Shown in pieces: positions 1-34,700 of a stretch of DNA of 64,000 bases. Each line of letters begins with the position of its first letter. The stretch's first letter is position 1. Both the position numbers and the translations under genes were made by a program. A model generated the notes under the pieces. It saw nothing but the letters and a program-made list of their open reading frames with translations. It had not been told where the DNA came from and did not search any database. This stretch comes from Apoda limacodes (lineage: Eukaryota > Arthropoda > Insecta > Lepidoptera > Limacodidae): NCBI GenBank assembly GCA_946406115.1, contig OX291557.1, forward strand, positions 14,354,501-14,418,500, given 5' to 3'.

Positions 1-318
1 TTAATTAGGTATTTCAATATCCCATTGAACACCAATGTCATTTATGATATAGGTACTTATTTTGCATATTCAATTTACAGCCTTTTCATTTTACATCCTT
101 GAATTGAACAAGTCACAGCACTTCGAAGAAACATTTTACGACTATATCCTATTTTCTTTCGGCAGCATCGCCATTCTTGGTCCTCATTAGAAACTTGTGT
201 TGTTCATAGGTTTCTTTCGTAATGATAATGATACTTACATTTTCTATTAACTGTTCTAAAATGTACATATCACTTATTTAATTCCCTTGATCGTTTTGAA
301 AGTGTTTTAAGTAATTCC

Positions 319-888
319 TTATCGATGAAGTCCAGAAGAATTACGATATACAACGTGTCGTGGTACTCTTTGTGTTGGCAATCCAGATAGTCCTTTAACA
401 TAGGTGTATGTTACTGGAGGTCGAAGTATACTCTTTGGTTGTGCTTGTTTTTTGGATTTTCGGCGTTCTAGAAGGGAGCATGATTGAGAACGTGCAGTGA
501 TATTAAAACTCTGGAAGACCTTTCGGAGAGATGAAGTAGAGCTGTGACGACGACGTCGGTCGGACACTTCGCTGCCGGAATTACTGCCAGATCCAGAAGA
601 CTGATCATCTGAATGTCCTGCTTTGCTTATCATACTGTCGCTGCTACTGGAACTGCCGATGGAATTTGCATCGGTATTTGGTGACAACCTTCGGCTGATA
701 ATACGTAATAATCGAGTTGCTTTTGAAGTTTTATCAGGCATCTCTTCAGCTGGTGGACATACCACTATTTTTGGAGTTGTCGTCATCCGGTAGTGCTTAT
801 CTTTTGTTTGCTGATCTTCTGCTGTCAGTGATAGACTGCCGATAAACTTTTCAGTTGCGATGAAATCATTTCCAAGTTTATTTTTCAT
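319..888 (-). CDS. Gene A: Ser/Arg-rich 189-aa protein of unknown family
   Basis: An intronless frame of 189 codons ends in TAA. I do not recognise the family. In order the protein has a short N-terminal region, a block PKIVVCPPAEEMPDK (39-53), a basic helix-like stretch TRLLRIISRRLS (58-69), a Ser/Asp/Gly tract (76-108), an RRRR cluster (111-114) followed by SSTSSLRK (116-123), and a strongly conserved C-terminus from PKSILRPP (151-158) to the end. There is no signal peptide or membrane segment, so a cytoplasmic or nuclear protein is likely. SILR (153-156) fits the [GS]IL[RK] phosphatase-1 docking pattern, but so short a match is weak. The first ATG follows a 5' leader of about 165 nt from a TATA/initiator promoter. 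Conservation in paralogue B and in both duplicates supports a real gene. The likely polyadenylation signal lies just left of the window, at the place matching 8450-8455. Confidence 0.85.
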   Translation of the reverse strand: MKNKLGNDFIATEKFIGSLSLTAEDQQTKDKHYRMTTTPKIVVCPPAEEMPDKTSKATRLLRIISRRLSPNTDANSIGSSSSSDSMISKAGHSDDQSSGSGSNSGSEVSDRRRRHSSTSSLRKVFQSFNITARSQSCSLLERRKSKKQAQPKSILRPPVTYTYVKGLSGLPTQRVPRHVVYRNSSGLHR

Positions 889-1049
889 CTTTAAAACAGT
901 TGTTTACACTTTCAACAAACGTAAAATTACACAAATCTTGCCTAATATTTTTTATGACTTCGAAGTAAAAGTTGCAAATTACTTAAAGTTTTTCGTTGTG
1001 AATGATTAACGCAACACTCTATAGAGTTGTTTCGTGAAAATGTGTCATG

Positions 1050-1112
1050 AACTGACTGCAGGGACTTGGAGCTGGACCTTTTATAATGCAGTTGGCGCAT
1101 GCGTGGTGTTGG
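1050..1112 (-). promoter_or_regulatory. Promoter of gene A: upstream box, TATA, initiator
   Basis: On the minus strand, TATAAAAG covers 1085-1078 and the initiator TCAGTT covers 1055-1050, with the likely start A at 1053, 32 nt from the first T of the TATA. Upstream of it, at 1093-1112, lies a stretch whose core matches the same place before gene B (tggcgcatgcgtggtgttgg here). Leader from start to ATG is about 165 nt. Confidence 0.75.
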
Positions 1113-1460
1113 TGATGCTTCAGTTGTGGTTGTTTCGTGTTGAGGTCCTGTATTATGACCGTTGCCACAATTTCCGGTACTTCTCGAATAGCTAACTAAC
1201 TAACTATTTCGGAAAACTGTATATTTTAACATGATTGAATTCTATTATTAAGGAATTCAATTGAATACGCTAAGAGTTCTATTATTAATATAAGCAATGA
1301 AAAATATATTTTTAGTAGGAAACAAAAATAAAATTTATACAAAAGAAGGTTTATTTTAGTAATTGTTAGGTAGGTTTTGGTATCCCAGAAAACATGTGAC
1401 ACAGACACGAGAGCTCGCAGTTGGTGCTATTATGAGTATTTGATAATTTATATATTTTTA

Positions 1461-1690
1461 GTTGAGGACTGAGTGGTGCAGTAGTAGAACATTGGGCTGC
1501 TATATTAAAAGTCCCGGGTTCCATTTCCAATATTGTTACAATTTGTCTCAACTTTGATTTGAGCCCGGTACGGCGATACCTATTACGTTTGTGGGACGCA
1601 ATCCCATCGATGAAACGTGCATGTAACGGGCGCTTACGTCTTTTATGTCTGTGACCAGCACTTCGGGGATAATTGTCGAGTATATATATT
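1461..1690 (+). mobile_element. tRNA-headed SINE, copy 1
   Basis: The head shows a Pol III A-box-like 'gtggtgcagtag' and a B-box-like 'gggttccatttcc' about 40 nt later, followed by a non-tRNA body and a tail of ATT repeats. The same element sits at the equivalent place in copy 2 (9915-10145), so it was present before the tandem duplication. Confidence 0.6.
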
Positions 1691-2218
1691 ATTATTATTA
1701 TATATCCATTATTATATTTTTGCAGCGTTTTTGATCAGCCAAAACTTGGATTTATTCTAATAAAATTACACATTTCAAAAAAAAAATCTCGCATAACTTG
1801 TTTTTTTTCTAAAGCGCAGATTACAAATATTTAATTTAAGATTTGTATAAAAATCATAAAAAACAGTAAACGGTACGGTATACAACATCATACTCACATA
1901 CCTCATTACATCTAATAAATATTAAATTTTATGTCAAAATCGTAATCTGCGTTCTCCAGGCGTTCTGCACAACCTGTATATAAGAAGAGACTACCTATAA
2001 GTAACATGAAAGAAACTATGGAAGGTTTTCCAAGAATTAACTGCCGCTTTTATTTTAGATTGAGATAAAATAATTTTGGCCAGTATTTTGGGTTGTAACT
2101 TAATTTTCAGATATTCCTGCAAGCTTAAAGGATTTTGTTTTGTAAATCCTGAAACACATTTAGATCCCATATTTTTTAACAGCAGAGAAGTCAGATCTGT
2201 GTTTAAATTTGCCCCTTT

Positions 2219-2480
2219 ATAGGGTTCCGTACCCAAAGGGAAAGAACGGGATCCTATTACTTAGACTCCGCTGTCCGTCCGTCCGTCCGTCTGTCACCAG
2301 GCTGTATCTCATGAACCGTGATAGTTAGACAGTTGAAATTTCCGCAGATGCTGTATTTCTGTTGCCGCTCTAACAACAAATACTAAAAAACAGAATGAAA
2401 CAAATGTTTCCTACAGCAAACTCTTCGGTCCGTACGGAACCCTTCGTGCACGATTCCGACTAGCACTTGGCCAATTTTTT
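2219..2480 (+). repeat. Widespread lepidopteran repeat (ccgtccgtccgt type), copy 1
   Basis: It starts near 'agggttccgtacccaaaggg', has a CCGT-repeat stretch, then 'aggctgtatctcatgaaccg', and ends 'gcacttggccaatttt'. The same consensus occurs at 10733, 30003 and 53705, with end fragments elsewhere. The family name is not assigned here. Confidence 0.75.
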
Positions 2481-3738
2481 TTTTGGTTTGGATGGAGTGT
2501 GTACTCCTATATTTTTTACCCTTTAGATTTGTGTTAAACAACAGTTTACACAATGTGTTAGGTACATAAAATCAATACTTCTACAGTGTTTATTATTTTG
2601 CAACCAGCTCCTGAATAAGTTTTAAGTTCTGTTTGTAACTTAAATTCTGTCTTTACTTGTATTTCAAAATTTATTGCCAAGTGAAATCAGAAAAATATCG
2701 TTCGACATTGGTAATGGATAGGCTGTACATAGATTAAAGGAAAAATTAATAGGTTTCGCAACGGAGTATTTATTTGACCTATATTTGGCACAAGGATAGG
2801 TGAAGAGATGTAGAAGGACTTGGAATACTTTACCTGGATCAAGAGTTTCTACGGTTATAGAGGTTTTTACAGATAATTTTGCTCGGCTCTGTTTTTTCAC
2901 GTAGCAAGCCAGGGACCAACGGGTTTACCTGATTTTTGCATAGGAGCAGCTATAAATTGGCAAAGAACATACAAGATTTTAATTTCGATTGATCTGAAAT
3001 ATTTATTCCACAGGTGATACCTCTAGGCACTATTCATTCAACAACGTACCAACAGTGTCATCAGATTTAGCTAAGGAGATTAGAAAAATATAAAATACTT
3101 TTATTTATTATAGTTACCTAATAGACGCGCAATCTAGTATTCGGAGCCGATACCTGTTTGGTTAATTTAAATTTTTTTCAAAATCTTTAGAACTTCAAAT
3201 TATGAATTAGAAATTCAGTTCTGTGAATTCGCATTCGTAAGCTACTACTTTCAACTAATCAATTTTATTTGTTTCGGACATCAACGAGTCAAATAGGTAA
3301 TAAAATTAAAATAATAAAATAAATTCAATATATTTATTTATTGTATACAAATATCTTAACTTACATGTTCATATATCTACCTAGCTACAAAATAGAGCAA
3401 TGTAATTTTTGTTATTAAATAAATAAATTGTATTAATACTTAATTAATAAGTCATTAAAAATGCAATAAAATGTCTTTTTGTATTCCTATAAACTTTGGT
3501 AAATAAAAACATTACAGAACAAATATGTGAGAGAACGGTTAGCCTATATCTAAATTCATTGAATACCTCAACAATAAAGGTACTTGCACCTAACCATATC
3601 AAAGTCATATATTTTATGCCAGCCTTTATATTTTAATTCATAATTATGATATTCATATAAAATCTGATAAATGTCCGTTATGTCCATAGAAATGTCCGTT
3701 TAATAGGTCTCAACCACTTTTAAGACGATAACAATTCT

Positions 3739-4308
3739 TTATCGATGAAGTCCTGAAGTATCACGATGAATCACTCGCCGCGGTATTCTCTGAGTTGGCA
3801 ATCCAGATAATCCTTTAACATAGGTATATGTAACTGGTGGCCGAAGTATACTCTTTGGTTGTGCTTGTTTTCTGGAATTTCGGGCTTTTGGAGGAGAATA
3901 TGATTGTGAGCGTACTGTGAGGTTCAGGCTCTGGAAGATCTTCCGCAGAGATGCAGTTGAGCTATTACGACGACGTCGGTCAGAAATTTCATTGCTAGAG
4001 TTAGAAGATTCAGAAGAATGGTCGTGCGAATGCCTCGTGTTGCAAGTGACACTATCGCTGCTGCTTGAGCTGCTGATGGAATCAGAATCCGTGTTTCGGG
4101 ATAGTTGTCGTCTAATAATTCGCATTAATCGCGTCACTTTCCGTCTTTTATCAGGCATTTCCTCAGCTGGCGGACGCACTACAATTTTTGGAGTCATTGG
4201 CACTGAATGCTTTTCGTCTTTATCTTGCTGATCTTTTATTACCTTCATCGACAAACCGCCGGAAAAATTCTCACTATCAATCATATTAATTTCTATTTTA
4301 TTTTTCAT
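3739..4308 (-). CDS. Gene B: 189-aa paralogue of gene A
   Basis: An intronless 189-codon frame with TAA stop, 2.85 kb from A on the same strand. It is collinear with A: MKNK start, PKIVVRPPAEEMPDK (40-54), basic segment TRLMRIIRRQLSRN (59-72), Ser tract (77-87), RRRRNSSTASLRK (111-123), and the C-terminal block PKSILRPP (151-158) through the end, with only a few changes such as RIPRR for RVPRH. The N-terminal 35 residues and the middle Ser-rich part have diverged. So A and B are an older duplication and the pair was later duplicated as a block. This copy has Met9 and Arg45, where B' has Val9 and Cys45. Two AATAAA motifs on the minus strand near 3342-3333 would end a 3' UTR of about 400 nt. 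Function unknown. Confidence 0.85.
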   Translation of the reverse strand: MKNKIEINMIDSENFSGGLSMKVIKDQQDKDEKHSVPMTPKIVVRPPAEEMPDKRRKVTRLMRIIRRQLSRNTDSDSISSSSSSDSVTCNTRHSHDHSSESSNSSNEISDRRRRNSSTASLRKIFQSLNLTVRSQSYSPPKARNSRKQAQPKSILRPPVTYTYVKGLSGLPTQRIPRRVIHRDTSGLHR

Positions 4309-4457
4309 ATTTAATAAGTTCTTTTCACTTGCAACAGCCGAAAAATACTTGTTTAATATTTTTGAAAGCGGGACGATAATTACACGAAGTTTAAAGTTTT
4401 TCGATGTTTACATGTAACGTAGTCTACAAAAGAGGTGTTCCACGAAAATCGGTTATG

Positions 4458-4522
4458 AACTGGTCTGTAAGCAGATCTAGACACTGGTTTTATAGGATAG
4501 TAGGCACATGCGCAGTGTTGGT
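4458..4522 (-). promoter_or_regulatory. Promoter of gene B
   Basis: TATAAAAC (minus strand, 4494-4487) lies 33 nt before the start A (4461) of a CCAGTT initiator. The conserved upstream box is 'ggcacatgcgcagtgttgg' at 4503-4522, which differs from the gene A box at only a few bases. Leader about 150 nt. Confidence 0.75.
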
Positions 4523-5404
4523 TCAATTACTCAATCCTGGTTATTTACACCGAGAACCTTAACATTCTACATGCGGTATATATGTTACCGCTCTGATCCA
4601 GAAAAACTATAATTTGAAATACTCACCTACATCTCTGTTTCTTTTACGTTGTGTCGTAACTTATATTTGTTCTGTGGTGGTGGGTTCTTCGATTATGTTT
4701 TAATTTATAAATGTGTCAGTTTTATAGTTGTGGAATCGAGAAAAGGTTTTAGGGTTCCTTAGCTAAAATCGGAATTCTTGGATGGATGGCACCACCTTAT
4801 ATTCTTTGGTTAGATCCTAATATAATTCTACAGAAACGGGTTATTTGTGAAAGCCATACATATTGGTCATACAAATTGAGAAATAATATTTTTAGTTAAT
4901 TTTTTTCACGCACCTACGTTTTTTTGGATAAACGCATATTTTTAAATGTATTAAATATTTTCTGTAAAATTTATATTTTGCGAGTTAGTTCGGTTAGTTA
5001 GTTAATTAGCTACCAAAGTTGAAAAAGAAAAGATGATGTAACTTTTGAAGTGCGAAATCTGAATATCCGGATATGATCATGGTAATAAAACTTTATAAAC
5101 ACTACCTACCAATAAAAAACAAAAGCGGCAAATAAGTAAATAAGTCTATGTCACGCACTTTGCCGCTTTTTATTTTATAATATCTATATTTTAATAAAAT
5201 TATTGTTTTCTTTGTTGTTTCTTGCTCATAAAACGATTAAGCAACTTTAACACTGCAAAATACCATTTTTAAAACTAAAAAGCAATTTAATTGTTCAACA
5301 GCTTAATAGAGTATGTAGTTTGGAATTAACTAAACATTGCATTAAAATTGTATTAAAGTTAAGAAATTAACAAATTTTCAGGAATATAATAAATACTTTG
5401 AACT
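4523..5404. other. Intergenic right of B, copy 1; one hairpin
   Basis: No gene seen. A 12-bp inverted repeat, 'aaaagcggcaaa' at 5121-5132 and its complement at 5159-5170, could form a hairpin with a 26-nt loop. It is kept in copy 2 near 13731-13780. Confidence 0.55.
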
Positions 5405-5597
5405 AATTAATCAACACTTATGTTTGTTTATTAATTTATCTCAACGCACACAGTACCCTACAACTTTTAACGTTTTTTTTAAATTCCTTCACCCAAAGGT
5501 TATCTGGGAGAGTTCGCTTCATAGCGATAAGATCGCCATTTGTTTACCTGTATAGTAAATACTGTTTTTATGTTTGATTTTGTGCAATAAAGTGTTT

Positions 5598-5623
5598 TAT
5601 TATTATTATTATTATTATTATTA
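5598..5623. repeat. (TTA)n microsatellite
   Basis: About eight uninterrupted TTA/TAT units following 'aaagtgtttta'. Confidence 0.9.
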
Positions 5624-5934
5624 AGACGGTTCAAGAGCCTAAAGTTTAATTACTGTAGTTTTTACCTTATTTACCATATATTGGTAACTAGACGATTCCA
5701 AAGCTAACAGTTTAGGGGGTTGAGCTTTGCAAAATCCTTTGAATATACTTACTGCGAAACTACTTGCTTAGTTTATAGGTTTCTACTTTCGTTTATTTTT
5801 ATGATTTTTTTTAGTTTATTTTGTTATTACGTTTTAGAGGCAGGTAATTTTATAATAGTTTAAATTATATTTTCCTTACTAGTATATTGGCAAAAGCCTC
5901 TTTGTTTGCTTTTGGTTTAAGTCGCTACGGAGCA

Positions 5935-6115
5935 ATTCATTAAGCTGATTTTGGCACAGAGACTATTTTAAAGGAAGGGTTAACTTTTTATCCCGGAAAA
6001 TTTAAATTTCCCACAGTACTCACTATAAACGAATTTGAGTGGACAAACTATAGCTATAGTTGTATAGCATAGTTAGGAAACCGACGCTGATAACCGAATT
6101 CAGCGCGGGCAAAAG
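5935..6115 (+). repeat. RTE-like 3' repeat fragment
   Basis: It contains the recurring sequence run 'ctttttatcccggaaaa', then 'cgctgataaccgaattcagcgcggg'-type end (split here by substitutions). It is the same family as the fragments at 27815, 55320, 57110 and 61025. Confidence 0.6.
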
Positions 6116-6570
6116 ATAGTCAGCTTTTTACTAAACACAAACAAAACTAAAATATTTTAGCTCTTTGGCTCCGACCAACGATCAAATATATACCTTCAAA
6201 TATTTTTCATTACGCTTATTCATAAACAGTGTCATTACGTGCAGGCAATACTCGAAGTAGCTGGCTGGCTTTTTCTTTGTTAATTTTACTTTTTTCAAAA
6301 CTATTAAGTATACTTAAAGACTGCCTGTTCCAGTTCAAAATATGGAATACCCGCGCACTACAAGCATGAAATTACAAGTTTTAACTTCAGTCAAAACTTT
6401 CTAATTCATAAATTCTCTAGATATCTTGCGCCATCCCATAAAAAATTTATCCAAATCGATTCAATAGTTTAGTTTTTAGACAATTCCAAATAACCTTCCC
6501 TTGAAAAATGTCATCCAAACAACTTTCCCTTGAAAAAAGCACTTCGTCACTCAAAAGTAAAAAATAAAAA

Positions 6571-6773
6571 CTTTTTAATAAAAAAAAAAAACAACCGGCT
6601 TCAAAAAGATGCACTAAAAAGTTAAAAATAATTACTTATTTCTAGAAAATCTGATCTAAATTACAGTTTGAAGTTGGTTTCATGCAAATTAAGCGTGTTA
6701 TTAACTGTTAGGTATCTACTCTACACTATTAGTGCATCTTTTTGAAGCCGGTTGTTTTTTTTTTATTAAAAAG
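6571..6773. mobile_element. Palindromic MITE
   Basis: The left arm starts 'ctttttaata' followed by an A-run and 'caaccggcttcaaaaagatg'. The right arm at 6730-6773 is its reverse complement, giving about 45-bp inverted ends around a core of some 110 bp. No coding capacity. Confidence 0.75.
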
Positions 6774-7163
6774 TCTTTATTATTTTTACATCTCGTTAAA
6801 TCCGGTATGGCTAAGCGGTAAACTCCGATATGCGTATGTTTGTATATCGCAACGGCTTTAATCCCCCAAAATTGGTGGTGAGCCCATCGCTTATATATAG
6901 TATTTATAAACATTTAAAGAATGATAGATTTTCTTACGTAGGTACTTCCAAGTTCTATTTTACCTCTTTGGTGATGAATTTCGCATAATGATTTCAATTA
7001 CACAAATAAAGAAAAGAAATCTTATTATTTAAAAACTTTTTTGTTTAAACCAGCCACTAGTTCCCAAACAAAGCGTTGATGAGAGTATATGAATAGATTG
7101 CTTATACGAGATCATAATTTAGAAATAATACCTATCTAATTATTTATAAACTTGACCGTTCTG

Positions 7164-7535
7164 GAACTTTATCTATACTAATATAATAAAGCAAAAGATT
7201 TGGTTTTTTTTCTTGTCTGAACGCGCTAATCTTATCTTAGGAACTTTGTCTATACTAATATAATAAAGCTAAAGAGATGTTTTGTTTCTTGTCTGAACGC
7301 GCTAATCTTATCTTAGGAACTTTGCCTATACTAATATAATAAAGCTAAGGAGATGTTTTGTTTCTTGTCTGAACGCGCTAATCTGTGGAACTTTGCCTAT
7401 ATTAATATAATAAAGCTAAACAGTTGGTTTGTTTCTTGTCTGAACGCGCTAATCTTTGGAACTTTATCTATACTAATATAATAAAGCTGAAGTGATGGTT
7501 TGTTTATTATTTGAACGCGCTAATCTCTGGAACTA
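7164..7535 (+). repeat. Minisatellite, about 5 units of 68-77 bp
   Basis: Each unit has 'ggaactttatctatactaat' (or tttgcc/tttgtc variants), then 'ataataaagct', then 'cttgtctgaacgcgctaatc'. Units start at about 7163, 7240, 7316, 7387 and 7459, and a broken sixth begins near 7525. It looks like local amplification of the 3' tail of an RTE-like element. Confidence 0.85.
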
Positions 7536-8449
7536 CTAGTTGGATTAAAAAAAATAGTTTTACATTTGATGGTCCAATTCTTGAGAAATGGATATGGGTA
7601 GGCTTAACTTTAGGAACCTAGCAAAAATAAAAAAAATAGGGCTGGCGAGCGATGCGCCGGGGAGGGGGGAGGGTGGCAGCAATGGAGATAGATAGATAGA
7701 GGTCAGCTAGTTATACATAAAGTTTATTAAATTGAATCAAAGACTACCGCTTTTATAAACATAGGCAATCTAAAATAAGAACTAAGGTCTTTCAAATTGA
7801 AACAATATAAACTTATGGTCAATATTTTATTGTATACGAAAACTTAGGACTAATATACAATATACACAATACGTGATTGCAATAGAAGTTGCTTTAGGTC
7901 AAAATCTTGTGTAATAGGAAATTATTTACTATTAACTATATGTGGTATACATAACAGCATTCATTACTAATATTTATTAAGCAACGATTCATAAAACTAC
8001 TTATTGAAAATAAATTCGTAAAGTCGCCATGTTTATTAATTTTAAAAATTAAATTTAAAGTAATACTTTTGACATTTATTACATAAATTTAAATTAAATG
8101 AATCATTGAAGTTGCGAAAGAATTCTTTCTTATTTTAAAATAAAAACAAAATTGTATCAACAAATGTGCATTCAAAAAAGATAATTACAATAAAGATTTT
8201 TTCTATATATGTAATGTTAAGAAAATTATCTTATATGTACTAAAGTAATTGAATACTATTGACTATTTACATATAGTAGAATTATTTAACATATAAAAAG
8301 GCACTATGCTTAATTATGCTTAATTCAGAAAAAAGGTAAATACGATTAATTCGTTTCGTACTATCTGATGATTAATATTAACGATTTATACCTTTACATA
8401 TGTATTAAATGATATAAAAGTATCTTTTATAGTAAATACAATAAGAAAC

Positions 8450-8455
8450 TTTATT
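8450..8455 (-). terminator. Polyadenylation signal of gene A'
   Basis: AATAAA on the minus strand, about 320 nt past the A' stop. It sits at the very edge of the region that matches the window start. Confidence 0.5.
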
Positions 8456-8773
8456 TTAATTAGGTATTTTAATATCCCATTGAACACCAATGTCATTTAT
8501 GATATAGGTACTTATTTTGCATATTCAATTTACAGCCTTTTCATTTTACATCCTTGAATTGAACAAGTCACAGCACTTCGAAGAAACATTTTACGACTAT
8601 ATCCTATTTTCTTTCGGCAGCATCGCCATTCTTGGTCCTCATTAGAAACTTGTGTTGTTCATAGGTTTCTTTCGTAATGATAATGATACTTACATTTTCT
8701 ATTAACTGTTCTAAAATGTACATATCACTTATTTAATTCCCTTGATCGTTTTGAAAGTGTTTTAAGTAATTCC

Positions 8774-9343
8774 TTATCGATGAAGTCCAGAAGAATTACG
8801 ATATACAACGTGTCGTGGTACTCTTTGTGTTGGCAATCCAGATAGTCCTTTAACATAGGTGTATGTTACTGGAGGTCGAAGTATACTCTTTGGTTGTGCT
8901 TGTTTTTTGGATTTTCGGCGTTCTAGAAGGGAGCATGATTGAGAACGTGCAGTGATATTAAAACTCTGGAAGACCTTTCGGAGAGATGAAGTAGAGCTGT
9001 GACGACGACGTCGGTCGGACACTTCGCTGCCGGAATTACTGCCAGATCCAGAAGACTGATCATCTGAATGTCCTGCTTTGCTTATCATACTGTCGCTGCT
9101 ACTGGAACTGCCGATGGAATTTGCATCGGTATTTGGTGACAACCTTCGGCTGATAATACGTAATAATCGAGTTGCTTTTGAAGTTTTATCAGGCATCTCT
9201 TCAGCTGGTGGACATACCACTATTTTTGGAGTTGTCGTCATCCGGTAGTGCTTATCTTTTGTTTGCTGATCTTCTGCTGTCAGTGATAGACTGCCGATAA
9301 ACTTTTCAGTTGCGATGAAATCATTTCCAAGTTTATTTTTCAT
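8774..9343 (-). CDS. Gene A': second copy of gene A (identical protein)
   Basis: This copy encodes exactly the same 189 residues as 319-888. Coding sequence, leader, promoter and about 300 nt of 3' flank show no base change from copy 1 by eye, apart from one near the window start. Everything said of gene A applies: unknown family, Ser/Arg-rich, no signal peptide, SILR motif at 153-156, conserved C-terminus. Identity over about 1.2 kb contrasts with visible divergence beyond 9670, which suggests recent gene conversion or collapse of assembly differences. Both copies look intact, so both may be expressed. Confidence 0.85.
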   Translation of the reverse strand: MKNKLGNDFIATEKFIGSLSLTAEDQQTKDKHYRMTTTPKIVVCPPAEEMPDKTSKATRLLRIISRRLSPNTDANSIGSSSSSDSMISKAGHSDDQSSGSGSNSGSEVSDRRRRHSSTSSLRKVFQSFNITARSQSCSLLERRKSKKQAQPKSILRPPVTYTYVKGLSGLPTQRVPRHVVYRNSSGLHR

Positions 9344-9504
9344 CTTTAAAACAGTTGTTTACACTTTCAACAAACGTAAAATTACACAAATCTTGCCTAA
9401 TATTTTTTATGACTTCGAAGTAAAAGTTGCAAATTACTTAAAGTTTTTCGTTGTGAATGATTAACGCAACACTCTATAGAGTTGTTTCGTGAAAATGTGT
9501 CATG

Positions 9505-9567
9505 AACTGACTGCAGGGACTTGGAGCTGGACCTTTTATAATGCAGTTGGCGCATGCGTGGTGTTGG
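9505..9567 (-). promoter_or_regulatory. Promoter of gene A'
   Basis: TATAAAAG at 9540-9533 and initiator TCAGTT at 9510-9505 (start A at 9508), with the upstream conserved box at 9548-9567. Identical to copy 1. Confidence 0.75.
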
Positions 9568-9914
9568 TGATGCTTCAGTTGTGGTTGTTTCGTGTTGAGG
9601 TCCTGTATTATGACCGTTGCCACAATTTCCGGTACTTCTCGAATAGCTAACTAACTAACTATTTCGGAAAACGGTATATTTTAACATGATTTAATTCTAT
9701 TATTTAGGAATTCAATTGAATACGCTAAGAGTTCTATTATTAATATAAGCAATGAAAAATATATTTTTAGTAGGAAACAAAAATAAAATTAATACAAAAG
9801 AAGGTTTATTTTAGTAATTGTTAGGTAGGTTTTAGTATCCCATAAAACATGTGACACAGACACGAGAGCTCGCAGTTGGTGCTATTATGAGTATTTGATA
9901 ATTTATATATTTTT

Positions 9915-10145
9915 AGTTGAGGACTGAGTGGTGCAGTAGTAGAACATTGGGCTGCTATATTAAAAGTCCCGGGTTCCATTTCCAATATTGTTACAATTTG
10001 TCTCAACTTTGATTTGAGCCCGGTACGGCGATACCTATTACGTTTGTGGGACACAATCCCATCGATAAAACGTGCATGTAACGGGCGCTTACGTCTGTTA
10101 TGTCTGTGACCAGCACTTCGGGGATAATTGTCGAGTTTATATATT
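9915..10145 (+). mobile_element. tRNA-headed SINE, copy 2
   Basis: Same element as 1461-1690, with the same A-box- and B-box-like motifs and a few substitutions. A frame on the other strand here (9821-10054) is a by-product of the SINE. Confidence 0.6.
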
Positions 10146-11856
10146 ATTATTATTATATATCCATTATTATATTTTTGCAGCGTTTTTGATCAGCCAAAAC
10201 TTGAATTTATTCTAATAAAATTACACATTTAAAAAAAAAAAAAAACGTATAATACAAATTACGAAGAAACCAAAATGGTTAAGAATTCATAAAAAAATCT
10301 CGCAAAACTTGTTTTTTTTCTAAGGCGCAGATTACAAATATTCAATTTAAGATTTGTATAAAAATCATAAAAAACAGTAAACGGTACGGTATACAACATC
10401 ATACTCACATACCTCATTACATCCAATAAATATTAAATTTTATGTCAAAATCGTATTCTGCGTTCTCCAGGCGTTCTGCACAACCTGTATATAAGAAGAG
10501 ACTACCTATAAGTAACTTGAAAGAAACTATGAGAGGTTTTCCAAGAATTAACTGCCGCTTTTATTTTAGATTGAGATAAAATAATTTTGGCCAGTATTTT
10601 GGGTTGTAACTTAATTTTCAGATATTTCTGCAAGCTTAAAGGATTTTGTTTTGTAAATCCTGAAACACATTTAGATCCCACATTTTTTAACAGCAGAGAC
10701 ATCAGATCTGTGTTTAAATTTGCCCCTTTATAGGGTTTCGCACCCAAAGGGTTAAGAACGGGATCCTATTACTAAGACTCCGCTGTCCGTCCGTCCGTCC
10801 GTCTGTTACCAGGCTGTATCTCATGAACCGTGATAGTTAGACAGTTGAAATTTCCACAGATGATGTATTTTTGTTGCCGCTATAACAATAAATACTAAAA
10901 AACGGAATGAAACAAATATTTGAGGGGGGCTCCTACAGCAAACCCTTCGGTTCGGTACGGAACCCTTCGTGCACGATTCCGACTCGCACTTGGCCAATTA
11001 TTTTTATTTGGTTTGGAAGGAGTATGTACTCCTATATTTTTTACCCTTTAGATTTGTGTTAAACAACAGTTTACACAATGTGTTAGGTACATAAAATCAA
11101 TACTTCTACAGTGTTTATTATTTTGCAACCAGCTCCTGAATAAGTTTTAAGTTCTGTTTGTAACTTAAATTCTGTCTTTACTTGTATTTCAAAATTTATT
11201 GCCAAGTGAAATCAGAAAAATATCGTTCGACATTGGTAATGGATAGGCTGTACATAGATTAAAGGAAAAATTAATAGGTTTCGCAACGGAGTATTTATTT
11301 GACCTATATTTGGCACAAGGATAGGTGAAGAGATGTAGAAGGACTTGGAATACTTTACCTGGATCAAGAGTTTCTACGGTTATAGAGGTTTTTACAGATA
11401 ATTTTGCTCGGCTCTGTTTTTTCACGTAGCAAGCCAGGGACCAACGGGTTTACCTGATTTTTGCATAGGAGCAGCTATAAATTGGCAAAGAACATACAAG
11501 ATTTTAATTTCGATTGATCTGAAATATTTATTCCACAGGTGATACCTCTAGGCACTATTCATTTAACAACGTACCAACAGTGTCATCAGATGTAGCTAAA
11601 GAGATTAGAAAAATATAAAATACTTTTATTTATTTGATTTACCTAATAGACGCGCAATCTAGTATTCGGAGCCGATACCTGTTTGGTTAATTTTATTTTT
11701 TTAAAATCCTTAGACTTCAAATTATGAATTAGAAATTCAGTTCTGTAAATTCGCATTCGTAAGCTACTACTTTCAACTAATCAATTTTATTTGTTTCGGA
11801 CATCAACGAGTCAAATAGGTAATAAAATTAAAATAATAAAATAAATTCAATATATT
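10146..11856. other. Intergenic between A' and B', copy 2
   Basis: Counterpart of 1691-3332 with no gene seen. It contains an extra stretch of about 58 bp near 10230-10290 not present in copy 1 and the repeat at 10733-10995. Confidence 0.6.
10733..10995 (+). repeat. Widespread lepidopteran repeat (ccgtccgtccgt type), copy 2
   Basis: Same insertion as 2219-2480. This copy keeps more of the consensus near its end ('gagtccgactcgcacttgg'-like, here gattccgactcgcacttgg), so copy 1 has decayed more. Confidence 0.75.
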
Positions 11857-12349
11857 TATTTATTGTATACAAATATCTTAACTTACAAGTTCATATATCT
11901 ACCTAGCTACAAAATAGAGCAATGTAATTTTTGTTATTAAATAAATAAATTGTATTAATACTTAATTTATAAGTCATTAAAAATGTAATAAAATACAATG
12001 CATAAGGTAAAAACTAATTGATGGCACAAATGTCTTTTTGTATTCCTATAAACTTTGGTAAATAAAAATATTAAAGAACAAATATGTGAGAGAACGGTTA
12101 GCCTATATCTAAATTCATTGAACACCTCAACAATAAAGGTACTTATTAGACAATTGCACCTAACCATATCAAAATCATATATTTTATGCCAGCCTTTTTA
12201 TTTTAATTCATAATTTACATTATACAAGTCACAGCACTTCGGGACAACTTTTCTTTATGATATACATATAAAATCTGATAAATGTCTGTTATGTCCATAG
12301 AAATGTCTGTTAAATAGGTCTTAACCACTTTTAAGACGATAACAATTCT

Positions 12350-12919
12350 TTATCGATGAAGTCCTGAAGTATCACGATGAATCACTCGCCGCGGTATTCT
12401 CTGAGTTGGCAATCCAGATAGTCCTTTAACATAAGTATATGTAACTGGTGGCCGAAGTATACTCTTTGGTTGTGCTTGTTTTCTGGAATTTCGGGCTTTT
12501 GGAGGAGAATATGATTGTGAGCGTACTGTGAGGTTCAAGCTCTGGAAGATCTTCCGCAGAGATGCAGTTGAGCTATTACGACGACGTCGGTCAGAAATTT
12601 CATTGCTAGAGTTAGAAGATTCAGAAGAATGGTCGTGCGAATGCCTCGTGTTGCAAGTGACACTATCGCTGCTGCTTGAGCTGCTGATGGAATCAGAATC
12701 TGTGTTTCGGGATAGTTGTCGTCTAATAATTCGCATTAATCGCGTCACTTTCCGTCTTTTATCAGGCATTTCCTCAGCTGGCGGACACACTACAATTTTT
12801 GGAGTCATTGGCACTGAATGCTTTTCGTCTTTATCTTGCTGATCTTTTATAACCTTCATCGACAAACCGCCGGAAAAATTCTCACTATCAATCACATTAA
12901 TTTCTATTTTATTTTTCAT
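12350..12919 (-). CDS. Gene B': second copy of gene B (two residue changes)
   Basis: A 189-codon intronless frame collinear with 3739-4308, differing at Val9 (Met in B) and Cys45 (Arg in B) plus a handful of silent changes. Cys45 matches A and A' (Cys44 there), so the Arg in B is probably derived. Roughly eight base changes over 570 bp contrast with none in A versus A'. All shared features are intact: PPAEEMPDK block, RRRR cluster, PKSILRPP and the C-terminal block. The likely AATAAA is at 11860-11855 on the minus strand. Function unknown. Confidence 0.85.
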   Translation of the reverse strand: MKNKIEINVIDSENFSGGLSMKVIKDQQDKDEKHSVPMTPKIVVCPPAEEMPDKRRKVTRLMRIIRRQLSRNTDSDSISSSSSSDSVTCNTRHSHDHSSESSNSSNEISDRRRRNSSTASLRKIFQSLNLTVRSQSYSPPKARNSRKQAQPKSILRPPVTYTYVKGLSGLPTQRIPRRVIHRDTSGLHR

Positions 12920-13068
12920 ATTTAATAAGTTCTTTTCACTTGCAACAGCCGAAAAATACTTGTTTAATATTTTTGAAAGCGGGACGATAATTACACGAAG
13001 TTTAAAGTTTTTCGATGTTTACATGTAACGTAGTCTACAAAAGAGGTGTTCCACGAAAATCGGTTATG

Positions 13069-13133
13069 AACTGGTCTGTAAGCAGATCTAGACACTGGTT
13101 TTATAGGATAGTAGGCACATGCGCAGTGTTGGT
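13069..13133 (-). promoter_or_regulatory. Promoter of gene B'
   Basis: TATAAAAC at 13105-13098, CCAGTT initiator with start A at 13072, and the upstream box at about 13114-13133. Matches gene B at an offset of 8611. Confidence 0.75.
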
Positions 13134-14014
13134 TCAATTACTCAATCCTGGTTATTTACACCGAGAACCTTAACATTCTACATGCGGTATATATGTTACC
13201 GCTCTGATCCAGAAAAACTATAATTTGAAATACTCACCTACATCTCTGTTTCTTTTACGTTGTGTCGTAACTTATATTTGTTCTGTGGTGGTGGGTTCTT
13301 CGATTATGTTTTAATTTATAAATGTGACAGTTTTATAGTTGTGGAATCGAGAAAAGGTTTTAGGGTTCCTTAGCTAAAATCGGAATTCTTGGATGGATGG
13401 CACCACCTTATATTCTTTGGTTAGATCCTAATATAATTCTACAGAAACGGGTTATTTGTGAAAGCCATACATATTGGTCATACAAATTGAGAAATAATAT
13501 TTTTAGTTAATTTTTTTCACGCACCTACGTTTTTTGGATAAACGCATTTTTTTAAATGTATTTAATATTTTCTATAAAATTTATATTTTGCGAGTTAGTT
13601 CGGTTAGTTAGTTAATTAGCTACCAAAGTTGAAAAAGAAAAGATGATGTAACTTTTGAAGTGCGAAATCTGAATATCCGGATATGATCATGGTAATAAAA
13701 CTTTATAAACACTACCTACCAATAAAAAACAAAAGCGGCAAATAAGTAAATAAGTCTATGTCACGCACTTTGCCGCTTTTTATTTTATAATATCTATATT
13801 TTAATAAAATTATTGTTTTCTTTGTTGTTTCTTGCTCATAAAACGATTAAGCAACTTTAACATTGCAAAATACCATTTTTAAAACTAAAAAGCAATTTAA
13901 TTGTTCTACAGCTTAATAGAGTATGTAGTTTGGAATTAACTGAACATTGCATTAAAATTGTATTAAAGTTAAGAAATTAACAAATTTTCAGGAATATAAT
14001 AAATACTTTGAACT
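13134..14014. other. Intergenic right of B', copy 2
   Basis: Counterpart of 4523-5404 with few substitutions. No gene seen. It ends at the right breakpoint of the duplication. Confidence 0.6.
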
Positions 14015-14211: not shown

Positions 14212-15520
14212 TCAGCGACGAAGGAGGACGGGTGCGGCACCATAAGCAGAGTATGTGAGTGGTACACCATAGGGTGAGACGACGGCGGGGGCGACTCCAG
14301 GGTACACGTAGTCTAATCCCGCGGAGTACGCGAGCAGCTGTGGGGAGGGCTCCGGCGCTGGAGCGGCCTTGGGTTCAGGCGCAGCCAGGGCTACCGCCAT
14401 CAGAGCGAACAGGGCAAACTGTAAATAAAATATTATTGATAAGGACATAAATATGCGTTATAGATAAATATAGCATTACTCTATGATAATAACGGGTGTA
14501 CCAAATAAGGGTACTAAGCGAGCATTCCCGGTAAGTTTTATGAGTATGTTAACATTTAAAACATTTTTATGGCTTAAATTTCAAACTTTAAAAATTACAT
14601 TTTTTAAACAATAGAAGTGACAACCCATCAGCTGTTTGGGATCAAGAGTCCTTGTCTTAAAATATGTTATGATGACATACTTTGAAGGCTTTCCGGTAAT
14701 GCTGAATAAGTATTTCTATTTCGTAACATCCTTCTTAAGGTCGTCGACCAACTTATGACATACAGTTTGTATACATATTTACAAATTTCTTTCTGTTCAA
14801 TTGAAAGACCATAAGGCTTGTTTAACCAACAACTGATGGAGAAACAAGGATACTGAGTGGCGACCACGGATGCCACGGACAAGAAATTGCAGTACAAATA
14901 GATTTACTATTGGGCTAACAGACTATCTATAGTTTTTTTAATTTTTTATACCACTAAGGTGGCAAACAAGCTTTCTGTCTGCCTGATGGTAAGCAGCGTA
15001 TTATATACTATACAGTTAAAGCCGCAGACATTCACTGGGTGTAGCTGGATAATTAGTCATGACTGACCGTTGTGACCCCCCCCCCCCGAAGTGCTAGAAC
15101 CCTGAGCCGTAAAAAATAAACAATTACTGTGCCGAGCAGTCACCCACGACTCCTCCTGGCCTCCCCTTTAATGAAACCCTGTAATAGCCCCTGAGTGAGG
15201 CCTACGTTTGAATTAGACTTACTAAAGTCTCGCCTAACATGACGATGACTTTATAGTAACTTTTAACTTTCAATTAAAGATAATTTACGTCGATAAAATG
15301 GAAAAGGTTAATCATTTGATGGGTATTTAAAGTTATGCTGAGATTCTATTGCCATCATCTTAATTTGTAAGAAAGAAACAACGTCGTTCTTTCTGAAAAT
15401 TTTTATATATATATTTCATGTGTTTTTTTTTAATTTAAAGTTTTATTTTATCGTTTGCCTTATAAGAAGCATTAATTGTCCAAAAATTTTAAATGCACTA
15501 CTTACAATCTTTGCAAACAT
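14212..15520 (-). CDS. N1: Nplp4-like small secreted peptide, two exons
   Basis: Exon 1 is 15520-15506 (ATG TTT GCA AAG ATT, MFAKI), followed by GTAAGT. Exon 2 is 14418-14212 after TTTACAG, with TGA at 14214-14212. The protein has 73 aa. Its hydrophobic signal peptide runs through FALFALMAVALAA, followed by a Pro/Glu/Ala segment PEPKAAPAPEPSP and a Tyr/Val/Pro/Ala-rich body ending VLLRR. The phase-0 intron of 1087 nt holds a LINE tail fragment (14930-15010). Size, signal peptide and Tyr/Pro/Ala composition resemble insect neuropeptide-like precursor 4 and small cuticular peptides. The exact role is unknown. A simple frame search gives a false start in the intron at 14448. The sequence differs from N2 at about 12 of 207 exon-2 bases. 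The C-terminus is VLLRR where N2 and N4 have VYLRR. Confidence 0.82.
14930..15010 (-). mobile_element. LINE 3'-end fragment in N1 intron
   Basis: T-rich run then 'ataccactaaggtggcaaac' and 'gcctgatggtaagcagc'. This is the reverse of the 3' end of the LINE at 58579-59125. Confidence 0.7.
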
Positions 15521-21505: not shown

Positions 21506-23127
21506 CAATCTGGCTTTCGATCCAGTCATAGTACTGTTACGGCTTTCACTAAGACCACGGATGATATCCGTTCAGTATGCAAGTTATTGCCCTTTCTGCT
21601 CCTGATATTGGTAATGCCTTTAACACGGTGAATTTAGACATTTTGATGGCAATCCTAAGGTCTCTTAACATATGTCCAGCAGTAATTGACTGGTTTCGTA
21701 GTTACTTGGGAGGTCGCCGACAGTGCATTCGGGTAGAAGAATCTTTCTCTAACTGGTGCCCATTAGCTGCCGGCGTATCTCAAGGTAGCGTGTTGACCCT
21801 TCTCTTTTCTGCAGATTTCATTAATACTATCACTCTCAAACTATCTTCTTTCTACCATCTGTTTGCAGACGATTTCCAGATGTATGCACACGGTCTAATA
21901 GAAAATGTCGTAACAACAATTTAACCATAATAAAATATTTGAATGGTGTGTCTCAAGTCGCAGACCATATAATTATAGGTAGCTCAAAACTAATATCCAA
22001 GATAAAATGGACTGATTTACCCCCAATCGAACTCAATTGTTTTATTATCCCGTTTAGTGAAGCAATAAAAAGTCTTAGTATTTATATTGACCGCACGTTA
22101 TCTTGGATCCCACAAGTCAAGGATATTAGCAGAAAAATCTTTGCCTCGGTCGGAACTCTGAGAAGATTACAGAATCTTTTACCGGTGTCACCTAAAATTG
22201 TGCTTGTCCAGTCTTTACTTCTACCTTTACTTGATTATGCTGACATTCGCTGCAATAATCTGACAGTGGAACAACTAAATAAAATTGAGCGTCTTCACAA
22301 TTTTACATTCACTTAATTTTTGGACTTTTACAATTTCATTCACAACTCAAGTGGTTTCCAGTGGCGTTATATTCATTTATATTTACCATAAAAATATATA
22401 TACAATATAACATAAACGGCAGGTCTGTAACGTATATACCAACATCGCAATATTAGCGTTACTTGATAACTTAATTGACTACGAAACCCTAAAAATAGCA
22501 CAGAGAACTAGAATTTTTAAATTGAAATTTTGTGATTGATTGATTGAGCAAAAACGTTAAAAGGTGGTTATCACGTGCATCGATGTTCGCCGCAGAATAC
22601 GAATGTGTTTCTAGCGTTGGAAGTAACACATTATCATTCGATTATACTAATTAATTTATAATCATGTAATTCAGTATAAAAAAGTCGATAACTTGGTTCG
22701 TAAATATTTATTAAGGCTTATCCTTCCAAATTGCGTAAGACTGTGTAAGTTTGGAACCGTAATTTTCCTGTTAAATATGACATTTATTAAATGCAAAAAA
22801 TATATAGTAATCTACAAGCTATACGGATTAACATGCTCTTGCTTAAAATTATTTTTAATATACATTAACCATTTGTTTTTAAAATACTATATAAATATAT
22901 AACAATCATTTTATTCGGCGCAAGATGTTATCGTACAGGTGGTACGGCTCATAGAAACGAGCTCTGAAGGTCGTTGGTGACTGGAGAAGCCTTAAGGCGT
23001 AACATATACACACACATACTTAGATATTTCGAATATTTTTTAACCCTATTTAGGCCGTAATTTTTAACTGCCTTGTACACCATGCGCACCGTAAGCTTGT
23101 TTGCCACCTTAGTACATTTGAATAAAA
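21506..23127 (+). mobile_element. Non-LTR retrotransposon relic (reverse transcriptase)
   Basis: Translation from 21506 reads QSGFRSSHSTVTAF and, after a frameshift before 21577, NAFNTVNLDIL, GVSQGSVLTLLFS and FADDFQMY, which are the palm motifs of a LINE reverse transcriptase. After another frameshift near 21930 the thumb and C-terminal part follows to 22316 (TLSWIPQVKDI, LLLPLLDYADI). The 5' end with endonuclease is missing. The tail up to about 23127 ends 'gcttgtttgccaccttagta', resembling the 3' end at 58640-58670. Broken by frameshifts, so inactive. Confidence 0.85.
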
Positions 23128-23639: not shown

Positions 23640-24301
23640 TATGTATTGTTAGAGATGGCAGCAGTACTCCATATGGGGCCGAACCTGCGACTTGTAAAGC
23701 AGCAACCTCTGCCCCGACGTGAAGTACTGCCTCGCTCTGTTGAGTGCACCTAGTTTTTTGGACGCCAGCTTCACCTTATCTTGTAAATGATCTCGGAACT
23801 AAACATCGCTGGAGATGTCGACACCAAGGATCCCAATGCTCTTGGAGATGGAGAGGGGAGTTTTCTGGAATTGTGGGACTACAGCGAATGGGGTTTTCTT
23901 AGCGGTGAACGCGCAGACTTGTGTTTTTGTAGGGTTAAATCGGACCAAGTTTACCCGTCCCCAGTCAGAGACCTTGGACAGTGTGGTCTCGATTTGAGAC
24001 ACAAGTTCTCCGCGGTTATCCTCCACAACGGAACAAGGGATGTTTGCACGACCCGTGTAAAAGTGTCTCCAGTACTGTCATCTGCATAGCAATGTATGTT
24101 GTTGATGGATAACATGTCATTGATATGCAGTAGAAAGAGCGTAGGAGACAGCACAGAGCGTTGCTGGACACCAGCATTAATGTCCATGCTATCAGAGCAA
24201 CTACCGTCAACTACGGTTCGTATGTGTCTACCGGACAAAAAGCTAGCCACCCATTTGCACAAACCCTCGGGCACTCCATAAGTTGGTAACTTATATAGCA
24301 A
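23640..24301 (-). mobile_element. Jockey-like LINE reverse-transcriptase relic
   Basis: Minus-strand frames read LCKWVASFLSGRHIRTVV, INAGVQQRSVLSPTLF and CYADDSTGDT (24301-23951). A frameshift follows, then VNLVRFNPTKTQVCAFT and ISIGILGVDIS-like sequence (to 23799), then a further shifted part to about 23640. The order matches the fingers, palm (YADD) and thumb of a non-LTR element. Truncated at both ends and frameshifted. Confidence 0.82.
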
Positions 24302-24864: not shown

Positions 24865-24870
24865 TTTATT
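24865..24870 (-). terminator. Polyadenylation signal overlapping the N2 stop
   Basis: The minus strand reads TGAATAAAG, so AATAAA starts at the last base of the TGA stop codon. A second AATAAA lies about 60 nt further on. Confidence 0.5.
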
Positions 24871-25466
24871 CACCGACGAAGGTAGACGGGAGCGGCACCA
24901 TACGCGGAGTATGTGAGTGGTACACCGTAGGGTGAGACGACGGCGGGAGCGACTCCGGGGTACACGTAGTCTAATCCCGCGGAGTACGCGAGCAGCTGTG
25001 GGGAAGGCTCCGGCGCTGGAGCGGCCTTGGGTTCAGGCGCAGCCAGGGCTACCGCCACCAGAGCGAACAGGGCGAACTGCAAATAATACAAAATAGCTTC
25101 TTGAAATAATAAGTTTCTAAATACACAGGTTAACCAAAAATCGTTACTAGTGTTGCTAACACTATTTTTATTTAACTTATATGATATTTTTATAATAAGA
25201 AAAAAATTAGTTACTGTACTAATAGAAAAATATTTTGTTTGCATAGTAGTAGGTACCAGTACCGAGTGCATACCAGCTAAATCTGTAAAAGATATATCTT
25301 TGAAATTAATGTAGTTAATAAAGGTTGACAGAAGTTGAAATCAAACACTGCATAGATTTCTTTAACTTACAAGCTGTTAAATCATTTATGCTTTGAAATG
25401 GAATCATGAGAATAAAGGAAAAAAGGGTAAATAGTCTAACAAAGAACTTACGACTTTGGAGAACAT
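24870..25466 (-). CDS. N2: Nplp4-like small secreted peptide, two exons
   Basis: Exon 1 is 25466-25452 (ATG TTC TCC AAA GTC, MFSKV), then GTAAGT. The 375-nt intron ends TTTGCAG. Exon 2 is 25076-24870 with TGA stop. The protein has 73 aa: signal peptide through FALFALVAVALAA, then PEPKAAPAPEPSP, then a Tyr/Pro/Val/Ala body ending VYLRR. From LAAPEPK on, it is identical to N4, which lies 20 kb away in the opposite orientation. The family is secreted; a role as a neuropeptide-like or cuticular peptide is known only by analogy. A frame reading straight through the intron (to 25271) is misleading. Expression is probably driven by the TATA/ACGATTCAG promoter just upstream. Confidence 0.87.
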
Positions 25467-31726: not shown

Positions 31727-34700
31727 ATCGATGCCAAAAGCGGAACTGCTGTAACCGCCACTTTTTTGCATATTTGGAATCAGCGATTTTTTCTGCGTCG
31801 AATGGTCTAGGTCCCATGGCTCTAAGACGCTTAGAAAAAACTGGACAGCATCGCAAAACGAATGTATTTTTTTGACCATGCCCCCTTCTTATTGCTGTAA
31901 ACGCCCAAATAGTAGCAAATTTTTAAACGAGTACACTTACGCCTATTTCGGTTTTTTATGACCCAACGAGTGTGGTGTTTACAGCGCTGCCGAAATTTTG
32001 TCCTGTGGCGTATACATCATTTATGCATGTAGTGAAAAAATAACTCATCAAGATTACTGCAATTATAGTAAAATAAATTATCTATCATCGACGCATACTA
32101 CGTTTACTTCGAAAATAATATAACATCAAGTCGCACTTACGATATTTGAAATACAGCGCGCTGTCGGTGGCACTCTCATCTATTACAGACGTTCCCTGCA
32201 TTGCTCCCCCATCGATCCCGCCCCTTACGAATTTAGAAGCATCCGTCTGCCGCTTAGCGATGATCAGCTGATCATCATCATTGCATCGGTTTATCTCTCT
32301 CACTCAAAAGACTTGCTGGAGAGCGACCTTCAGTCGCTCTTAAATTTAGGCAAAGCCGGCATCCTTGCCGGTGACCTAAATTGCAAGCACCGTCGATGGA
32401 ACTCTTCAATCACTTCATGGAGAGGCAGACTCCTCGACCAATTAGTTGAAAGACTAAACTTCAACATCATCGCTCCCATAACGCCCACCTACTTTCCCCA
32501 TAACGCTCGCCTCAGCCATGTCGTGCTCGACGTAACACTCCTAAAGAATGTAAGGCTAAGCTTTCGCTCTATAGAGGTGCTTGACGAACTTGACTCGGAC
32601 CACCTCCCTGTCCTCCTCCGATCAGGTTTCTCATCGGACACTCCTCCCGACACTAAAACCGTAACGGACTGGAATAAATTCGGACAATTACTCGAAAACC
32701 CCAGCTCGCCACACCTAGATCGCGTTCCCAATAATATCTCTTCCGCGAACGATATAAACGTAGCTATTGACTCACTCACTAGCCACCTGACCGCCACCAT
32801 TGGCAAGTGCTTAAGACAAGTGCCGGTTGGTGACTACCACCACCTAATCCTGCCTCAGCACATCAGGTCGCTAATGAATGCTTGCTGCAGACGTGATCGC
32901 GGCCCCACTACCAAAAGCAAGGCTCCCTTCAACGACTTACACCGCCGTGTAAGAACAGCTGTAGCTCAGCTTCGCGCCCAACATTTCGGTGATCTGATAA
33001 TGAATATTTCTCCTTCTCATCAACCTTATTGGCGCCTAGCCAGAGCGTTAAAATCAGACACCTTCAACTCCCTCCCTCCGTTAACTCGTCCCAACAACGT
33101 TCCCGTGTTCGATGACAACGATAAAGCGGATTGCTTTGCATCTAGCCTCCAAGCCCAATGTGCCTTAAGCACACAACCTTTCGATCCCGATCACGTGCGA
33201 GAGGTAGACGGTGAAGTGGAGCGCAGAACTTCTCTGCCCGCGCAGGATCCTCTGCCCCCCGACACAGTTGACGAAGTCAAACAGGTCATTTAAGACCTAC
33301 TCCCCCGTAAAGCCCCTGGCGCGGACGGTATCTCTAACGATATCCTAAAGCGCCTCACTCTTCCCCTTCTCTGCTTTCTAGTAGCCATCTTCAACGCTGC
33401 TATCGAAAATGGCATCTTTCCTTCTCAATGGAAAGTTACAATTGTAATAGGCATCCATAAGCCAGGCAAAGCTCGTACCAAGCCGTCCTCCTACCGCCCT
33501 ATAAGTTTACTAAATGCCCTTGGTAAACTTTACGAACGTCTCCTCCTCGCTCGCCTACGGAACGCTATAGTCTCCAGAGGCATCTTAATCGATGAGCAGT
33601 TCGACTTCCTCGCCAAAAACTCGTGCGTCCACCAAGTCCTTCGTATCACGGAGCACATTATCACTGGCTTCCAACGAGTATTAAATAAGCCCCGTCACAC
33701 AGGCGCTGTGTTCTTCGATGTAGCAAAAGCCTTCGACAAAGTCTGGCACAACGGTTTAATTTATAAACTGTACAACTATCAGTTGCCAGACCGCTTCGTA
33801 CTCATCATACGAGACTATTTGTCGAACCGCAGCTTTCGAGTCGAAGGCACTCTCTCTTCCCTTCGCCCCGTACAAGCAGGAGTCCCGCAAGGGTCTGTGT
33901 TAGCCTCTATCTTGTACTTCCTGTACACACACGACATCCTTAAAACGATAGGTACCCAATTAGCCATCTTCGCCGACTTGGGTTGAATCACTAAGAGACT
34001 CCAATCCGCAATAACCGCACTAGGCGAATGGTTTCGGAAATGGAGAATCGAAGTGAATCCCGACAAAATCTCTGCCGTTCTTTTTACCACTGGCGGGAGA
34101 CCATCTTCCCTTTCACTCTTCTGTCGTGCCATTCCTTGGCAAAACAAGGCCATATATCTCGGTGTGACCCTGGATAGGCATTTGAACTTCCGCGATCACA
34201 GCAGCAGCTTTTGTCCTCGGCCGTCTATATCCCATGATAGGTAAGTATAGTAAGATGACGCTTAGCATTAAGCTGTCACTTGCATCTACCCCATACTGGC
34301 ATATGCTAGCGTCGTCTATGCGTTGTCTAAACGCAACCGCCATAAACTCCAGACCCTCCAAAACCGCTTCCACAGAGCGGCCTCCGGAGCCTCCTGGTAC
34401 GTCCGCAATGCGGACCTACACAGGGACTTCGAGCTTCCCACGATTCCCTAATATCTTAAAGACCTGGCTGTCCGCTTTTTCGAGCGTACACAAAATCACC
34501 TGAACCGATTAATTTTGCAATCCGCAACCTACCAATCCCCCCGACCGACCTCGGCACGGTCGAAAAACTATTTTTAGGCGGCCTCGGCACGTACTAACGG
34601 CCCCAGACTACGATCTCGCGACTAGTCTCAACTACCTCCCCTAATAGGGTCTCCCTCCTAACACGACGCCGACGTCTCAGGGTTCGTCGGTGAATGCACG

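Follow-up and report, generated by a model that had tools for sequence, protein, structure and literature searches.

The paired A and B genes in this stretch of the Apoda limacodes genome belong to a real and expanded insect family, DUF4797 (PF16051), which is worth listing but is not undescribed. The original prediction had seen no known domain in their products; however, PF16051 matches all four proteins encoded in the window (A1, B1, A2 and B2) with E-values of 3.6e-13 to 6.8e-14, scoring 49.7-52 bits against a curated cut-off of 27 bits in the Pfam search. Its claim of an undescribed gene family falls with this, since Pfam had already catalogued DUF4797 and the family has named relatives in three insect orders. 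What is new here is additional copies, the family itself being already catalogued. The prediction had also named an immediate match to a characterised family as grounds for its own refutation, and what was found lies halfway: the family has a Pfam name, but no function was found for it. It retains a 25-residue C-terminal motif across those three orders, yet our search by family name, orthologue gene numbers and motif strings, which covered the main text of open-access papers, found no paper on DUF4797 or PF16051. As far as these searches show, DUF4797 is thus a family catalogued by name but unstudied.

Gene copies in the window and the genome

The window, i.e. the whole stretch of 64,000 nucleotides that was analysed (C20:14354501-14418500), contains the four intact 189-codon frames that had been predicted, all on the minus strand and with ATG starts:

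319..888, minus strand: A1, ATG-started frame of 189 aa with a PF16051 match; DUF at residues 151-178
3739..4308, minus strand: B1, ATG-started frame of 189 aa with a PF16051 match
8774..9343, minus strand: A2, ATG-started frame of 189 aa with a PF16051 match; coding DNA identical to that of A1
12350..12919, minus strand: B2, ATG-started frame of 189 aa with a PF16051 match

Twenty mononucleotide shuffles of the window yielded no ATG frame of at least 189 aa. The A1 and A2 proteins are the same, and B1 and B2 differ at two residues (9 and 45). The conserved C-terminus of the two paralogue types is borne out, A and B being identical at 34 of the last 40 residues. The Ser/Arg-richness of the proteins is borne out as well (Ser 17.5-18%, Arg 9.5-12% across A and B). 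Their description as intronless is shown for the coding frame only. The proposed double duplication is a head-to-tail repeat of about 8.9 kb; to this we add a third A/B pair, inverted and about 220 kb off, outside the window:

1..5404 in the window (C20:14350973-14359904): tandem unit 1, starting at about -3527, outside the window
5397..14014 (C20:14359897-14368514): tandem unit 2, head to tail with unit 1
C20:14130220-14136958: third A/B pair, inverted, with long pieces 96-98% identical

Matching pieces of the two tandem units are 92-99% identical, and the third pair carries about 370 bases of flank otherwise found only beside unit 2. Local tandem repeats are seen at 7163-7534 (~77 bp) and 42781-43295 (~105-bp register); the former lies within unit 2, and the match to the third pair also has its left edge there.

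The 800-Mb assembly (31 contigs) has nine DUF4797 loci above the cut-off, namely three A, three B, one C and two D:

C20, ~14354.8, 14363.3 and 14135.0 kb: A loci
C20, 14358.2, 14366.9 and 14131.6 kb: B loci
C20, 14450.0 kb: C locus, diverged, near A and B
C16:19141193 (L008) and C16:11214536 (L024): D loci on another contig, short, 112 aa each

None of the nine has an internal stop, and the Pectinophora orthologue used as a query led to the same nine places, with no separate standard copy.

Relatives of the family

In A and B the Pfam alignment runs over residues 151-178 and takes in positions 1-28 of the profile's 44, short of its whole length; the C protein matches positions 1-40. No Pfam family other than DUF4797 was found in the four proteins at E up to 1, and neither A alone nor the family profile matched a solved structure at the same threshold. 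PF16051 matches all 86 aligned relatives (E up to 0.1). A protein search with A returned 170 matches at E up to 0.001; the best among the 120 listed are full-length lepidopteran proteins, about 49-61% identical to A, followed by beetles; the top matches listed cover 100% of A at 54-61% identity. Profile searches (300 matches, 120 listed; and a second, at E up to 1, with 154 matches, 120 listed) bring in the lacewing Chrysoperla, along with many unnamed sequences, among the matches listed. The named relatives among the matches listed are moths and butterflies, beetles and one lacewing; there is no named fly among the 120 of 154 matches listed from the profile search aimed past most beetles and moths. 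A guess that the fly member could be CG14186, a neuronal activity-regulated gene, was rejected, as PMC12405872 gives TMEM237 as the orthologue of CG14186. Most rows of P0164-P0198 form a large group of unnamed sequences that share a MEEPRVMFIDIPxxKSRSVSPMSPSP start and a KRILRQPVSYTYLKGMSGLPTQRVPRSSVC end.

The orthologues from Pectinophora (LOC126372350) and Plodia (LOC128672940) are 58-60% identical to A and share with it the length, the MKNKLG start, the PPxEE block, the helices and the C-terminal motif. Most relatives have KRILR, whereas the copies in this moth have KSILR; SILR is present in 9 of the 198 fetched relatives. In contrast to the nine loci of this genome, each named lepidopteran species appears once among the 120 of 170 matches listed, in which sequences were clustered at 90% identity. 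In a quick 60-protein tree, A1, A3, B1 and B3 form a group (SH-aLRT 89) that is joined by C (88) and falls within Lepidoptera; the branches of C and D are very long, which leaves their positions unsure. The grouping of A, B and C, together with the single listing of other named lepidopterans, supports an expansion in this lineage, and the sequences suggest that DUF4797 was multiplied in this moth lineage, with A, B and C branching together. Two members from the scarab Holotrichia oblita (P0154, P0188) carry neighbouring gene numbers, hinting at a separate local duplication; thus, local duplication of DUF4797 is not unique to this moth.

Selection, promoters and message ends

The Ka/Ks ratio of A versus B, which had been proposed as a check, reveals purifying selection and is not close to 1 (dN 0.21, dS 0.97, ratio 0.21). 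The synonymous divergence is uneven along the gene: dS goes from 1.42 in codons 1-38 to 1.12 in 39-60, is saturated over 61-110, and comes to 0.55 and 0.56 in codons 111-150 and 151-188, respectively; dN is lowest (0.083) in codons 151-188. Past gene conversion may lie behind this fall towards the 3' end. Pooled over the three A and three B copies, the changes comprise 11 nonsynonymous and 10 synonymous ones, against an expectation of about 73% nonsynonymous under a transition weight of 2 (P = 0.035), a weak sign of constraint on the young copies. Single comparisons between young copies give dN/dS values from 0.12 to 0.61, which makes them a weak measure of constraint on the newest copies. Residues 146-189 show no differences among them. 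D1 and D2 differ with a dS of 0.22 and a dN/dS of 0.47.

The compact TATA promoters of the original prediction are indeed present, with TATAAAA lying 197 (A) or 186 (B) bases 5' of the ATG and an initiator-like TCAGTT (A) or a CCAGTT (B) about 30 bases downstream of it:

1050..1085, minus strand: A1 core promoter, TATAAAA at 1085-1079 and initiator-like TCAGTT at 1055-1050
4458..4494, minus strand: B1 core promoter, TATAAAA at 4494-4488 and CCAGTT at 4463-4458
9505..9540, minus strand: A2 core promoter, spacing as in A1
13069..13105, minus strand: B2 core promoter, spacing as in B1
3416..3428, minus strand: AU-rich words ATTTATTTATTTA 3' of B1, with the same words after B2 and B3

Positions -225 to -94 of A align with -214 to -82 of B at a score of 43, as against at most 31 in 200 shuffles, and the alignment centres on a common CGCATGYGCC 5' of the TATA box. 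The core promoter and leader diverge less between copies than the DNA further upstream: between A1/B1 and the third pair, 3 of 480 sites are different in the segment -240 to -1, compared with 28 of 1157 in the DNA beyond it (P = 0.015). C has TTTATAAA and TCAGTT at the corresponding place, and its promoter gave no alignment with A or B above shuffles; the D loci lack a TATA box at the position where A and B have theirs. If the start sites are right, the leaders of A, B and C contain tiny upstream frames. A promoter motif scan, run without a shuffle control, found no consistent inducible element. At the other end, a pair of overlapping ATTTATTTA words follows each of the three B copies, against a window average of 0.05 per 400 bases, and no doubled AU-rich word follows A within 600 bases. 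In B2 and B3 an AATAAA precedes these words and could end the message before them.

Two rival accounts of the copies were weighed. The tandem A2/B2 block could be an artefact of assembly in which two haplotypes of one locus were placed side by side; long pieces of units 1 and 2 are 94-99% identical, and haplotypes of an outbred moth can differ to that extent. However, unit 2 follows unit 1 head to tail to within 8 bases, there are no Ns in the 84 kb examined, and such an artefact would leave the third, inverted pair 220 kb away untouched; we accordingly regard it as improbable. The extra copies could also be idle young by-products of local duplication, with one A and perhaps one B being functional. 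The single young comparisons with dN/dS up to 0.52-0.61 and the weakness of the pooled constraint favour this account, to which we assign an appreciable, if minority, chance. It has to contend, however, with the open frames at nine of nine loci, the lower divergence of the core promoter and leader relative to upstream DNA, and the A-B dN/dS of 0.21.

A tentative role for the products

An AlphaFold2 model built on an 86-row alignment has a mean pLDDT of 54, with 27 of 188 residues reaching at least 70, and places helices at 58-66 and 118-125 and strands at 160-164 and 170-175. The protein is thus predicted to be mostly disordered apart from two short helices and a C-terminal hairpin corresponding to the DUF. 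Taken with the alignments, the model suggests that the chain is disordered and carries three conserved elements, all of them short. The first is a basic helix (RLLRxxSRRL), the second another helix with an Arg-Ser site after it (SLRKVFQS...RSQSCS), and the third the DUF hairpin, PK(R/S)ILRPPVTYTYV(R/K)GLSGLPTQRVPR. GxSGLPT is found in 191 and RSxS in 197 of the 198 fetched relatives.

We tentatively posit, at somewhat less than even confidence, that these genes encode a disordered, kinase-regulated adaptor made from a quickly switched gene that has multiplied in this lineage. The ancestral state would have been one DUF4797 gene, which is apparently single in other moths and butterflies; its duplication in this lineage would have given rise to A, B and C. 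The A/B block would then have been duplicated at least two more times, giving an inverted copy about 220 kb away and the tandem of about 8.9 kb. The product would be an intracellular adaptor, in which the two short basic helices (~58-66 and 118-125) and the C-terminal hairpin dock partners while the Arg-Ser sites come under kinase control. The gene itself, with one exon, a TATA box plus initiator and a short leader, seems built for quick output and may be acutely induced, as the original prediction supposed. With its single coding exon, its TATA box and initiator, its short leader and its small disordered product it resembles genes of the immediate-early type, a likeness solely in how they would work; Pfam and structure-profile searches found no sequence kinship to a characterised family. 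The candidate kinase sites vary between copies: B has RSQSYS instead of RSQSCS, and RRxS occurs once in B, three times in A1 and nowhere in C and D, and the kinase-site reading is therefore uneven. Two further motif readings were tried and set aside: for docking of protein phosphatase 1, [GS]IL[KR] occurs in nine of nine copies and 11 of 198 others, but RVxF in only two of nine; and for a beta-TrCP-type degron, a loose DSG is present in 80 of 207 sequences and in none of the nine copies here. A bolder proposal, of which we are distinctly doubtful, is that insects have in DUF4797 a class of docking proteins that has gone unrecognised, short-lived, under kinase control and made from fast TATA genes, and that this moth lineage has multiplied and diversified it (A-D) into a small regulatory set in which gene conversion would help to keep the 3' half and core promoter uniform. 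A lineage with so many copies of the gene offers natural variants with which the roles of helices, Arg-Ser sites and C-terminal motif could be told apart.

The adaptor reading competes with two other views of the product. Richness in Ser and Arg is what an SR-type RNA-binding or splicing protein would display, but there is no RNA-recognition domain, DUF4797 being the sole Pfam match at E up to 1, and inspection shows no evident runs of RS dipeptides; we consider this identity very improbable. That A and B might instead be secreted or cuticle-linked, like their short Ala/Pro-rich neighbours within these 84 kb (four near-identical copies of a secreted-type exon and a fifth, diverged one), strikes us as the most far-fetched possibility, as by inspection both start with MKNK without a hydrophobic leader and match only DUF4797.

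These neighbours, Ala/Pro/Tyr-rich exons of perhaps cuticle-like type, form a cluster of their own:

14215-14418, minus strand: short secreted-type exon
24873-25076, minus strand: short secreted-type exon
47122-47325, plus strand: short secreted-type exon
40650-40790, minus strand: short secreted-type exon
C20:14345602-14345805, minus strand: short secreted-type exon

Four of the copies are 97-100% identical to the query and one is 70% identical; the secreted-type frame at 24870-25271 had no Pfam match. A further copy, its sequence divided between two reading frames, is found next to the third A/B pair (C20:14130227-14130377). Additionally, Pfam matches mark fragments of non-LTR retrotransposons in the window:

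21577-21924, plus strand: reverse transcriptase (PF00078)
32313-33293, plus strand: endonuclease-reverse transcriptase (PF14529)
23951-24301, minus strand: sub-threshold reverse transcriptase match
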